This document shows positions 2,543 through 6,000 of a DNA stretch of 6,001 nucleotides, in pieces. Made by a program: the position numbers and the translations under genes. How positions within the stretch are numbered: the first letter of the stretch is position 1; every line of letters starts with the position of its first letter. The notes under the pieces were generated by a model that made no database searches, was not told the origin of the DNA, and saw only the letters and a list, made by a program, of their open reading frames with translations. Origin of the DNA: Spirochaetaceae bacterium (lineage in GTDB: Bacteria > Spirochaetota > Spirochaetia > SZUA-6 > RPPD01); assembly GCA_003818675.1 (NCBI GenBank), contig RPPD01000153.1:1-6001 (forward strand). Reading direction: 5' to 3'.

Positions 2543-2956
2543 ATGAAAAAACTGCTTATATGCATGATTCTCCTTTCATTCTTCATCACTGTAGCTGTTT
2601 TCGCACAGGAATCCGGTGAGTCCAAGGACAGGCTATATGTAAAAAGCTTCCCGTGCGAACAGATTTTTCCAACCAGGTATGGATACATAATAGGTTACAA
2701 GCCTGCTTTAAAGGATTATGCCTACGCATACATTCCCATGGCATGGTTTAGAGCTGATAGCGGCAAGGCCAACATAGTCTATGGCTCAGGACCGGAGTTC
2801 CCTTATTTTGAGGTGACATGGAAAAATGGCGAGTTTGCCCACGTTACAATTTACGGTGTTGATGACATGCACAGCCTCTCATGGGGTGTCCTGCTGGGTG
2901 ATGATTCTCCATTTGAATCCAGATTCAACCAGGATACACTTTCACTCAAATACTGA
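2543..2956 (+). CDS. Small exported protein of unknown function
   Basis: This 137-residue protein starts at the ATG behind a perfect AGGAGG. Residues 1-21 form a classic Sec signal peptide: MKK, a hydrophobic core, then a probable cleavage site after AVFA and before QESG. No lipobox is seen at the cleavage site, so the mature protein of about 116 residues should be released into the periplasm or beyond. The mature part is rich in Tyr, Phe and Trp, has a single Cys (C38) and no further membrane segment. A short beta-rich fold is plausible. I recognise no family or catalytic motif. It is the first gene of the plus-strand operon. Its TGA overlaps the ATG of the M24 peptidase by one base, and a strong terminator hairpin lies 26 bases past its stop, so it may be made in excess over the two downstream genes. 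Confidence 0.85.
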   Translation: MKKLLICMILLSFFITVAVFAQESGESKDRLYVKSFPCEQIFPTRYGYIIGYKPALKDYAYAYIPMAWFRADSGKANIVYGSGPEFPYFEVTWKNGEFAHVTIYGVDDMHSLSWGVLLGDDSPFESRFNQDTLSLKY

Positions 2957-4131
2957 TGAAAGAACAGGAAAAGATAATTCAGGCCATCCAGGCGGAATCT
3001 TTCGCTGGATGGCTTTTTTATAATCTCCATCATCGCGATCCTGTTGCAGACCGTGTATGTGGAATATCTTCTGAAATCCCAAATACCAGGCCGTGGGTTT
3101 ATCTTTTGCGAAGTTCACAAGATCCGGTAAAAATTGTCCATACCATTGAAGCTGAAATACTGGACCACTTGCCGGGCAGAAAGGTCATATACAGCGGAAG
3201 GGAGTCCCTTGCCGCGTGCCTGAAGGAATTCGCTCCCGGATCTGGTCCATGGGCCGCTGACTTTTCTTTGTCATTTCCTGGAATATCGTTCATAGACCAT
3301 GGAACAGTGCTCTGGTTGTCTGACTTGGGATATAAAATTGTCTCTTCAGAAAAACTCATTCAGCAGGGCTTGAGTACGCTGACGGATGAGGAGATTGAAA
3401 GTCACGAGGAAGCTGGAAGGATTTTATACCAGACTGTCCATACTGTCTGGAAGCGCATCTGTTCCTGCTTTTCCGGCAAAAAAACACCTGTATATGAAGG
3501 GGAGGTGCTTGGCTGGATTCTGGAACACTTTGAGAAAAACGATATGCATACGCATCCTCCACTGATCGTGGGCGCGGGGATTCATTCAACCATGCCGCAC
3601 TATTATCCTGAAGGGAAGGGAAGCAGGCTTGCCGCAAACGATGTTCTCCAGATAGACATCTGGGGAAAGAAAAAGGCTGAAGGTGCAATTTACGCGGATA
3701 TATCCTGGGTGTGTTTCCTTGGGAAAAAGGTGCCCGGGGAAGTGGCAGCCGCGTTTGCCGTTATCCGTGACGCACGTGATATCGCGGTTGACTTCATCGG
3801 TTCCAGGTTCTCTGCGGGGGAGTCTGTAACAGGTGCGGATGTAGACCAACGGGTTGAGGAATTTATCCGGGGCGCGGGATATGCGCAGTACCTGCGCCAC
3901 AGGACAGGACACTCCATCGATACCGAGTGTCATGGCTATGGCGTGAATATAGATTCGCGTGAATACCCTGATTTAAGGCAGCTGGGTCCTGGCGCCTGTT
4001 TTTCAATTGAACCAGGTCTGTATCTTTCTGACTTTGGGGTCCGCACAGAGATTGACGTATACATCCGCGGCAACAAACCAGTCATTTCAGGCGGCAAGCC
4101 GCAGAATGAGGTACTCTGCTTTGACACATGA
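2956..4131 (+). CDS. M24-family metallopeptidase (Xaa-Pro peptidase-like)
   Basis: This 391-residue cytoplasmic protein has no signal peptide. Residues 1-140 form an N-terminal domain containing GWLFYNLHHRDPVADRV, and residues 145-391 form the pita-bread catalytic domain. All five expected metal ligands are visible: D234 (LQIDIWGK), D248 (AIYADIS), H319 (HRTGHSID), E352 (SIEPGLYL) and E365 (GVRTEIDVY). H215 (MPHYYP) and H326 (ECHGYG) fit the substrate-binding histidines. M24 enzymes are dinuclear-metal peptidases, often cleaving Xaa-Pro bonds. The DIWGK and ECHG variants suggest an uncharacterised subfamily rather than classical PepP or PepQ, so the substrate is open. The start overlaps the preceding stop as TGATG with no clear ribosome site, pointing to translational coupling. 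Codons 10-22 contain a terminator-like hairpin and T tract. The DHH gene overlaps its 3' end. Confidence 0.92.
   Translation: MKEQEKIIQAIQAESFAGWLFYNLHHRDPVADRVCGISSEIPNTRPWVYLLRSSQDPVKIVHTIEAEILDHLPGRKVIYSGRESLAACLKEFAPGSGPWAADFSLSFPGISFIDHGTVLWLSDLGYKIVSSEKLIQQGLSTLTDEEIESHEEAGRILYQTVHTVWKRICSCFSGKKTPVYEGEVLGWILEHFEKNDMHTHPPLIVGAGIHSTMPHYYPEGKGSRLAANDVLQIDIWGKKKAEGAIYADISWVCFLGKKVPGEVAAAFAVIRDARDIAVDFIGSRFSAGESVTGADVDQRVEEFIRGAGYAQYLRHRTGHSIDTECHGYGVNIDSREYPDLRQLGPGACFSIEPGLYLSDFGVRTEIDVYIRGNKPVISGGKPQNEVLCFDT
2983..3019 (+). terminator. Intrinsic terminator or attenuator inside the 5' end of the M24 gene
   Basis: A perfect 9-bp stem pairs GCCATCCAG (2983-2991) with CTGGATGGC (3005-3013). 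It can be extended inward past a bulged G by C-G, G-C and G-T pairs, and is followed immediately by six T (3014-3019). This is the standard shape of a rho-independent terminator on the plus strand. It lies 26 bases after the stop of the small exported-protein gene and within codons 10-22 of the M24 peptidase. It could terminate a monocistronic message for the small gene or act as an attenuator whose folding is blocked when ribosomes continue into the peptidase gene. Confidence 0.72.
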
Positions 4132-5137
4132 TTATTCACACGACAATCAGGATGGTAAAAATATTCTGCAAGAGGCTGTCCGTTTTATAACAGATCACGC
4201 GGTTTTTTACATTCTTGGCCATATGGAACCTGACGGGGACTGCATTGGTTCCCAGCTTGTGATGGCATCCATCCTGACCCGCATGGGGAAGAAGGCTGTT
4301 CCGCTCCAGAATGGTCCATTTGACAGGCCGGAATGTGAAAACTATGCAGGCGAGTTTGTCGCAGAAATTCCCGGCCTGAATAATTCAATTGAAGCCAAGG
4401 ATAACAATGGATATGCAGTCATTGTGGTGGATTGCTCTACGCCGGATCGTGTTGAAAAGTCCTATCACAAGCTCTTCAGCCTGCCTGTCCTGGTGATTGA
4501 TCACCACGCTTCTGGAGATCCGTTTGGAAGCGTCAGATTGGCGGATCCCGTAGCTGCTTCCACAACCATTCTTGTGTACAGGCTTGCCAGGGAGATGGGC
4601 ATTACTCTTGCAAGCAAGGAGGCGGAGCTGGTTTTCTTTGGCCTGGCCACAGATACAGGGTATTTTCGTCATTGCGAAGAAAACTCCAGTGAGGTGTTTG
4701 AAACCGCGGCAGACCTTGTAAGACAAGGAGTCTCACCGCGCAATATATACCAGGCCATGTATGGCAACCGCGAGTTTGGGAATCGCAGGTTTCTTGGCCT
4801 GCTTTTGTCACGGGCTGAAAGTCACTTTGATGGAAAGCTCATCTATACTTACCAGACGCTTGCGGATGCGCCTCTTGCAGCTGGAAGCACAAGGTCATCT
4901 GATGAAATGTACGGCCTCTTCCAGTCAATACGAGGGGTCCAGGCGATAGCCTTTGTACGTGAAGAATCGCCGGGTGTCTGCTCCGTAGGCCTTCGCTCCA
5001 AGGAGACCATGGATGTAGGCGCTCTCGCGCGGGCAAATGGCGGGGGAGGACACAAGCTTGCGGCGGGATTTAACGCAAATGCTGAAATGGAAGAGGTGCG
5101 CCGGCTTTTACTTGAAACCTTTGCACCCCTGTTTTAG
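4106..5137 (+). CDS. DHH/DHHA1 phosphoesterase, NrnA/nanoRNase-like
   Basis: This protein (343 residues from ATG 4106) has the full motif series of DHH subfamily 1. Motif I is GHMEPDGDCIGS (H39, D43, D45), motif II VVDCSTPDR (D109), motif III VIDHHAS (D132, H133, H134) and motif IV ATDTGYF (D183). The DHHA1 substrate loop is NGGGGHKLAAGF (H316). Length and order fit NrnA, a Mn-dependent cytoplasmic enzyme that cleaves short oligonucleotides and in some bacteria pAp, pApA or pGpG. Which of these it prefers cannot be read here. It is the last gene of the plus-strand operon and overlaps the M24 gene by 26 bases. ATG 4106 lacks a ribosome site; an in-frame TTG at 4121 has GAGGT eight bases upstream and is a serious alternative, giving 338 residues. 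The conserved domain is identical either way. Confidence 0.92.
   Translation: MRYSALTHDYSHDNQDGKNILQEAVRFITDHAVFYILGHMEPDGDCIGSQLVMASILTRMGKKAVPLQNGPFDRPECENYAGEFVAEIPGLNNSIEAKDNNGYAVIVVDCSTPDRVEKSYHKLFSLPVLVIDHHASGDPFGSVRLADPVAASTTILVYRLAREMGITLASKEAELVFFGLATDTGYFRHCEENSSEVFETAADLVRQGVSPRNIYQAMYGNREFGNRRFLGLLLSRAESHFDGKLIYTYQTLADAPLAAGSTRSSDEMYGLFQSIRGVQAIAFVREESPGVCSVGLRSKETMDVGALARANGGGGHKLAAGFNANAEMEEVRRLLLETFAPLF
4108..4112 (+). promoter_or_regulatory. Possible ribosome binding site for an alternative TTG start of the DHH gene
   Basis: GAGGT at 4108-4112 is followed after eight bases by an in-frame TTG at 4121. The ATG at 4106 overlaps this box and instead has a small GC hairpin (4091-4102) where its own ribosome site should be. 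Confidence 0.35.
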
Positions 5138-5139
5138 GT

Positions 5140-6000
5140 TCACACTGCGGCTGCAAGCCGCTGTTTCAGGCGAAAGAGCATGACATCAACAGTTCCCTTT
5201 GGCAAACCCAATGCATTCCCGATGGCCAGGTGCGAGGGTGAAAGCTGGACATGGGCAATGGTAGTCATCAGGTTTGACAAAGTCCGGTTTTTCCCGTGAA
5301 GCCGTTTGTAGAGCAAAGACCTGTTTTCCCTGTCATGCTCATTCAGCAATGCGTGCTCAATTCCCCTGACCTCCACAAAAAGCCTGTTCCGTCTGCCTGC
5401 GAGTCTTAAAAGACGCTCCTCCTGTCCTGAAAGACCTGACTTCAGGTCGTCAAGTTTTTCCCTGATCCAGGAAGCATCCATTCCTGCCATTTTGGAAATG
5501 ATGCAGATGTCCTGTTCACCATGGTCATAAGCGCGTTTGAAAGCATAGCAGAGAAATCTGTTTCTGGAAGTCCGGTCCTGGATTTTGCCAGTTTCATTGA
5601 TATCAAGAACCTGGTTTGCCAGAGGATTTTTCTTTGAAGCAATATGAAAGGATGTGTGCGGTTGATCTTCCACAAGACTCGGGGACATGGCGAGCTCATG
5701 AAGAAATGATTTTCTTTTCTGGATTCCAAGAAAGGTCTTTAACCTCCTTCTGACGAGATATTTCAGGTAGTTAGTAAAAGTGACACCTGAATGACGGAAC
5801 CGCGAAATCGCCCGCACGAGGGTGGGATGAAAATGGAGAAAAAAATCACTTTTTGTATCTTCATCTATGCGTCTGTACTTTTGGATAATGTCGTAAACAG
5901 CCAGGGCGCATTCCCCGTATACTTTGTCATATTCTTTTCCTGTTGACTGGTATTCAAGAACATTCCGGGTGAGTTTTTCCTGATTACATGTACTGTCCAT
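5140..6000 (-). CDS. Sigma-70-like protein, divergent
   Basis: From ATG at 6000-5998 this gives 286 residues. Only one base upstream is in the window, so the start cannot be checked and the gene may begin further out. Residues 24-95 resemble sigma-70 region 2, with the stretch FHPTLVRAISRFRHSGVTF followed by NYLKYLVRRRLKTF. Residues 254-283 resemble the region 4 helix-turn-helix of ECF sigma factors, with AIGNALGLPKGTVDVMLFRL. Between them lie about 160 residues, far longer than an ECF linker, including a second possible helix-turn-helix at 151-190 and charged helices at 191-245. It could be an alternative sigma factor or a DNA-binding regulator derived from one; its targets are unknown. It converges on the DHH gene with a two-base gap between stop codons, so it is not part of that operon. 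Confidence 0.8.
   Translation of the reverse strand: MDSTCNQEKLTRNVLEYQSTGKEYDKVYGECALAVYDIIQKYRRIDEDTKSDFFLHFHPTLVRAISRFRHSGVTFTNYLKYLVRRRLKTFLGIQKRKSFLHELAMSPSLVEDQPHTSFHIASKKNPLANQVLDINETGKIQDRTSRNRFLCYAFKRAYDHGEQDICIISKMAGMDASWIREKLDDLKSGLSGQEERLLRLAGRRNRLFVEVRGIEHALLNEHDRENRSLLYKRLHGKNRTLSNLMTTIAHVQLSPSHLAIGNALGLPKGTVDVMLFRLKQRLAAAV
5147..5166 (+). terminator. Weak terminator-like hairpin after the DHH gene
   Basis: GCGGCT (5147-5152) and AGCCGC (5156-5161) pair perfectly around a three-base loop. The stem begins nine bases after the DHH stop and is followed by TGTTTC. The stem is GC-rich but short and the T run is poor, so termination would be partial at best. The hairpin lies within the last codons of the convergent sigma-like gene. 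It has no T run on the minus strand. Confidence 0.3.

Follow-up and report, generated by a model that had tools for sequence, protein, structure and literature searches.

The window, meaning the whole stretch of 6,001 nucleotides analysed here, contains three co-directional forward-strand genes that overlap or almost overlap, a layout that fits the position of a terminator inside a proposed operon. Gene 1 (2543-2956) encodes a small exported protein of 137 aa with a signal-peptide-like start, a member of a spirochaete family; the protein has a precomputed PF27399 annotation and had no match among the Pfam profiles of a local copy. Before it lie a Shine-Dalgarno-like AGGAGG (2531-2536) and a promoter-like site (TTGATT, 18 nt, TATAAT; 2485-2514), the latter found in a consensus scan with 10 of 12 matches and so named on sequence likeness only. 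The next gene (2956-4131) encodes an M24 metallopeptidase of 391 aa (PF00557, E 6.4e-26) whose nearest protein among the matches listed is 56% identical and comes from a Spirochaetales MAG, and among plasmids only relatives below 60% identity turned up. A DHH/DHHA1 phosphoesterase gene (4106-5137; PF01368, PF02272), NrnA-like and with an uncertain exact start, ends the proposed operon; its match to the NrnA model is weak and under the model cut-off. The TGA of gene 1 (2954-2956) and the ATG of M24 (2956-2958) overlap as TGATG (2954-2958), as described in the first-pass annotation of this DNA. On the reverse strand, a gene convergent to DHH (5143-6000) has a sub-threshold match to an ECF-type sigma factor (29.9 bits, cut-off 42.9), and two genes are divergent from gene 1, one (1515-2396) whose product has a match to HD metalloproteins that stays below threshold and one (3-1502) for a GAF protein that matches an HD domain weakly.

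A hairpin (2982-3014, forward strand) lies within the first codons of M24. Its core is a 9-bp perfect stem of GCCATCCAG (2983-2991) with CTGGATGGC (3005-3013), which with the T run that follows occupies M24 codons 10-22, codon 10 beginning at 2983; the first-pass annotation had reported this stem and six T, and both are present. In the predicted fold the stem is lengthened on its inner side by a 4-bp helix (2993-2996 with 3001-3004) and on its outer side by one G-U pair (2982 with 3014). Directly 3' of the stem is TTTTTT (3014-3019), which would be the U-tract of a putative intrinsic terminator and coincides with a CTT/TTT codon bias. Folding energy of 2975-3024 was -22.3 kcal/mol, compared with a mean of -9.07 (sd 2.42) in 200 dinucleotide shuffles, none of which was as low, and the hairpin alone gave -21.1 kcal/mol, a stable G+C-containing hairpin of the intrinsic terminator type. 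When codons 8-22 of the window were recoded synonymously with the protein fixed, none of 200 versions folded as well. A d'Aubenton-type terminator score was 28.3 for this element; a standard terminator scan of the window, whose loop limit is 8, did not list the hairpin. By structure the hairpin and T run form an intrinsic (Rho-independent) terminator and by position an intra-operon one, as read from the sequence. Residues A10-I11-Q12 and A17-G18-W19-L20 correspond to the two arms and L20-F21-Y22 to the T run, in an N-terminal motif where, over 30 aligned homologues, W19, L20, and F21 are invariant and A10, E14, G18, and N23 are at least 90% conserved. This conservation agrees with the earlier view that moving the M24 start downstream is unattractive.

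Patterns of conservation were analysed in M24 orthologues. We located 112 loci and retained 101 distinct ones once identical starts were removed, of which 100, counting the window, came from spirochaete sets and one (L010) from Acidobacteria; G432, G499, G418, and G645, which were partial or weaker matches, were left out. As a null, codons 8-22 were randomly recoded with each gene's own codon usage. Mean folding energy was -17.5 kcal/mol observed versus -10.6 kcal/mol recoded (mean z -2.01), and the tail held 6.4 T versus 5.3. The fold alone was past 95% of recodings in 68 of the 101 orthologues, and fold and T count jointly in 86, by a joint test that is lenient in that some ordinary folds (e.g. 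L122, z -0.20) pass via the T run. Representatives at less than 60% identity, thinned from 100 loci with L010 left out, passed jointly in 27 of 31 cases, 23 of them at the 1% level (mean z -2.36), as did 18 of 20 at less than 55% identity. In a fold profile along the gene, available for 51 of the 101 loci, the hairpin site was the extreme among 110 windows (-1.66 versus a mean of -0.13), with -0.44 at the next non-overlapping window. Codon choice was similarly skewed: Leu20 was CTT in 81 of 86 (26 expected), Phe21 TTT in 90 of 101 (68), Ala10 GCC in 65 of 88 (37), Ile11 ATC in 58 of 78 (30), Asp17 GAC in 71 of 79 (38), and Gly18 GGA in 58 of 97 (25). Other nearby columns outside the stem are biased too, for example Leu30 (CTT in 55 of 84, 25.5 expected), so that not all codon deviations can be attributed to the stem. 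Selection of Ile11 as a residue by the stem was not significant within spirochaetes (70/86 versus 8/14, p 0.075). The same treatment of 68 non-spirochaete loci, L010 among them, found no signal, with a mean z of +0.24, 4 of 68 passing jointly, T counts of 4.78 both observed and recoded, and CTT in only 15 of 68 Leu20 codons; the protein motif alone is therefore insufficient to make the element. These comparisons show conservation of the predicted element beyond what protein and codon usage explain.

Comparison of orthologous loci had been proposed as a check in the first-pass annotation, and in it the stem proved to be retained through synonymous and compensatory change. In a gap-free alignment of 97 sequences, with L010 and identical segments left out, the ten stem pairs were paired in 80.9% of cases versus 78.5% in shuffles, and in 25-51% when partners were slid by 1-3 columns. 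Two-sided changes numbered 21 versus 10.6 and the covariation score was 0.192 versus 0.163, and none of 500 shuffles reached these three values, but because the sequences are related such fractions are not probabilities. The number of pairs with a two-sided change (5 versus 3.5) and of further pair types (17 versus 15.7) was unexceptional relative to shuffles, and slid structures had 14-41 two-sided changes, so the 21 of the stem are not by themselves above them. Some clades have a terminator of different make-up. In L091 and L186, TCCATC(C/T) pairs with GGATGGA and Ala-Leu is there replaced by Ser-Ile; L094 has an altered inner pair; and L020, L093, L096, L098, and L189 have a shifted stem with matching changes. 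In a clade with Ile20 the stem is weak or lost, and 5 of 9 members pass the joint test mainly via the T run. The d'Aubenton-type terminator scores were negative in these nine loci and in L091, and 18 of 92 embedded elements scored at or below 0. A cultured species can be linked to the element: the M24 protein of L113, where the hairpin has -15.9 kcal/mol, is identical over 388 of 388 residues to P0093 of Gracilinema caldarium. In L121, L130, L133, and L136 there are 60-200 extra bases with an inverted repeat between gene 1 and M24, and the embedded hairpin is retained.

The element is associated with gene 1. A member of the gene-1 family immediately preceded M24 in 98 of 101 loci; the exceptions were L010, L082 and L170 (little upstream sequence available). 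In the stretch running from the gene-1 stop into M24, the best terminator was inside M24 in 92 of 101 loci, in the gap in four, strong in L090 (-18.8) and L152 (-26.4) and weak in L081 and L187, and absent in five. Loci were classed as abutting when the gene-1 stop was at most 95 nt from W19 and as gapped when farther, and the element as present when the joint test was passed with an intact T run. Of the abutting loci 74 of 86 carried it, versus 5 of 12 of the gapped ones (p 0.0015 by Fisher's test, which takes no account of relatedness). The association has exceptions on both sides: 12 of 86 abutting loci failed these strict conditions and 5 of the 12 gapped ones passed, and among the 74 element-bearing abutting loci five (L122, L145, L148, L153, L178) have poor stems. 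The gapped loci L090 and L152 have their ordinary gap terminators in place of the embedded element. Gene 1 has a wider distribution than M24: it occurred in 143 of the 392 genomes of the phylum, and a strong orthologue of M24 in 19. Approximately 125 genomes carry gene 1 but lack a strong M24 orthologue; loci from 40 of them were sampled, and in the 39 scanned a terminator of -12 kcal/mol or lower within 150 nt past the gene-1 stop was found in 16, with 0.6 expected; of 16 further such loci, 4 had one within 220 nt (a raw count). Where visible, gene 1 is usually followed by the DHH gene with or without M24 between them (L190-L259 and the window). In L223 and L238, which lack a strong M24, a terminator-like hairpin follows gene 1 around the DHH gene start, perhaps the same solution made independently.

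One further locus, L196 (G217:C1), has apparently lost M24, but the first 24 codons of that gene, hairpin included, survive there in a short reading frame with a stop codon that overlaps the beginning of DHH. Among other members of this genus, M24 and the hairpin are both present in L280 and L281 and have been lost together from L282 and L283, so that L196 is suggestive and not decisive. L282 seemingly retains a shorter piece of the M24 start fused to the DHH frame, which L283 does not have.

Patterns detected are consistent with a partial intrinsic terminator of gene 1 embedded in M24 codons 10-22, and we consider this explanation probable, the support for it being all comparative. Polymerase moving past gene 1 would meet the hairpin and U-tract approximately 55-65 nt after the gene-1 stop, where a fraction of transcription would stop, producing a short mRNA of gene 1 alone, with the remainder reading through to M24 and DHH, which would be expressed less. 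Termination itself at the U-tract, and its efficiency, are what we infer from these patterns. The terminator would be written into M24 codons because the overlap of gene 1 and M24 leaves no intervening room. What stands of the first-pass annotation is a terminator-like element at the M24 start, right after the small exported-protein gene; its suggestion that the element sets expression of gene 1 relative to M24 and DHH is one that we retain as plausible, and its translation-dependent mechanism we think unlikely, as discussed below.

In that mechanism ribosomes finishing gene 1 would re-initiate at TGATG and cover the stem, polymerase would continue, and M24 and DHH would follow the state of translation. 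Spacing and Shine-Dalgarno analyses of 100 loci, L010 left out, bear on this. The overlap that such an attenuator calls for is common: stop/start offsets in the 90 loci with an assignable start were -1, the register of TGATG in the window, in 29, -4 in 11, and 0 in 9, i.e. 49 of 90. Shine-Dalgarno pairing was strong for gene 1 (median -9.3, 68% of 98 at -6 or better) versus weak for M24 (median -2.8, 6% of 90 at -6 or better), which makes re-initiation the likely route onto M24. Moreover control of this type is known for pyrBI, whose terminator is inside the leader-peptide gene, according to excerpts of Li et al. (PMC4824070). Against it, the element occurs without the overlap in five gapped loci, and L196 retains it without the peptidase. 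From the same excerpts of PMC4824070, translation lowered the efficiency of a terminator placed in E. coli 30 bp past the translated start of a second ORF by only about 10%, and terminators within the first 100 bp of coding regions were efficient. The natural locus has nearly the geometry of that 30-bp construct, so far as the excerpts describe it, and by analogy the E. coli data favour a weak effect of ribosomes on termination. The gene-1 stop is 25 nt from the stem in the window, and the median is 31 nt (range 21-64) in 83 abutting loci; by the same analogy this median is in the range of maximal termination in E. coli, which excerpts of PMC4824070 put at spacers longer than about 27-30 nt. 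We thus regard the attenuator as unlikely, and hold it equally doubtful that, through much of spirochaete evolution, selection has kept some 40 bases in two roles at once, as a peptidase motif and as a terminator whose readthrough depends on ribosomes that re-initiate after gene 1. If it were true, output of the peptidase and DHH enzyme would be a readout of the state of translation in the cell.

By analogy with the excerpted E. coli results, a partial terminator that acts for the most part constitutively and sets how much gene 1 is expressed relative to M24 and DHH is a better fit than a switch under ribosome control. The Shine-Dalgarno contrast and the spacing fit an abundant short gene-1 mRNA with limited readthrough to M24 and DHH. 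A cost of this design is that re-initiating ribosomes would be stranded on transcripts that stop inside an open frame, and the weak M24 start may also limit their number.

Alternatively the hairpin could have another job: it could form a processed or stabilising RNA end or the 3' end of an Hfq-type small RNA, or control translation of M24. The structure is clearly under selection, and a hairpin with a U-tract is also typical of small-RNA ends. In Borrelia burgdorferi, 59.1% of mapped 3' ends are ORF-internal and only 15.2% of those have a significant terminator score (PMC10319736, in part). Another job would not account for selection on the T run, which processing or translational control does not need, or for the ordinary terminators that loci without M24 often have after gene 1. 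A known RNA family was also rejected, the whole window having no Rfam match at the gathering score. We consider another job improbable. Least credible of all is an origin by chance, or from the protein motif and codon usage alone: arms and T run are encoded by conserved residues and a weak hairpin is thus expected, as in the null average of -10.6 kcal/mol, but such an origin is contradicted by the synonymous null, the representatives below 60% and 55% identity, and the 68 orthologues from other phyla.

Some further candidates at the site were discarded. A -10 box, TATAAT at 3019-3024, is replaced by TGTAAT, TGCAAC, and others in relatives, and a promoter scan listed no promoter using it. As for a frameshift at the T run, the -1 frame closes within 20 codons in 86 of 101 loci, and the +1 frame past it closes within 20 in 35 of 101 and has a median of 36 open codons versus 21 elsewhere in the gene, a length that may reflect composition. 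Nor does the element appear to be a genome-wide habit: when 400 kb of a related genome were searched for terminators with lenient settings and roughly called genes, the hits comprised 14 that were intergenic, 25 mid-gene, 33 antisense, and 4 near a gene start, the last including this locus and three that were unclear by eye.

There are partial parallels in known systems. By analogy the closest in spirochaetes is the termination reported for bmpB of Borrelia burgdorferi, where expression of bmpA-bmpB is modulated by two transcription termination events, according to the title of Ramamoorthy et al. 2005 (J. Bacteriol.) as cited in PMC10319736. There too an exported-protein gene precedes a gene with a reported ORF-internal 3' end; the genes are different, and the likeness is drawn from that title and from mentions in PMC10319736. 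A functional parallel, again by analogy, is provided by ABC importer operons of cellulolytic Clostridia, in which excerpts of PMC9045158 describe internal terminators with measured efficiencies of 20.7% to 96.1% and partial termination after an exported-protein gene that keeps its level above that of the following genes, although those terminators are intergenic and not inside the next gene's codons. The engineered W48 operon, as excerpted from PMC4824070, likewise has a working terminator behind the first gene, 30 bp past the translated start of the second ORF, but was built in the laboratory in E. coli and is neither natural nor conserved. Amino-acid and pyrBI leader attenuators, in the same excerpts of PMC4824070, have a terminator in or just past a short translated ORF, whereas the M24 locus has no leader peptide and the host ORF is a full enzyme gene. 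What sets the present element apart from these parallels is its location in the codons of the next gene and its conservation across spirochaete lineages. No report of it was found in the literature searched, which covered few subscription papers.

Terminators in coding regions are usually regarded as suppressed or as noise, and this is an apparent natural case in which many spirochaete lineages have kept one within codons, where the choice among synonymous codons follows the RNA structure, as do residues of the two arms in some clades. The locus would offer a clean system for studying how an enzyme gene is expressed when a terminator lies close to its start, and how cells deal with transcripts that stop inside an open frame. 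Odd codon bias near the start of a gene may, by extension, mark the 3' end of the gene that precedes it.
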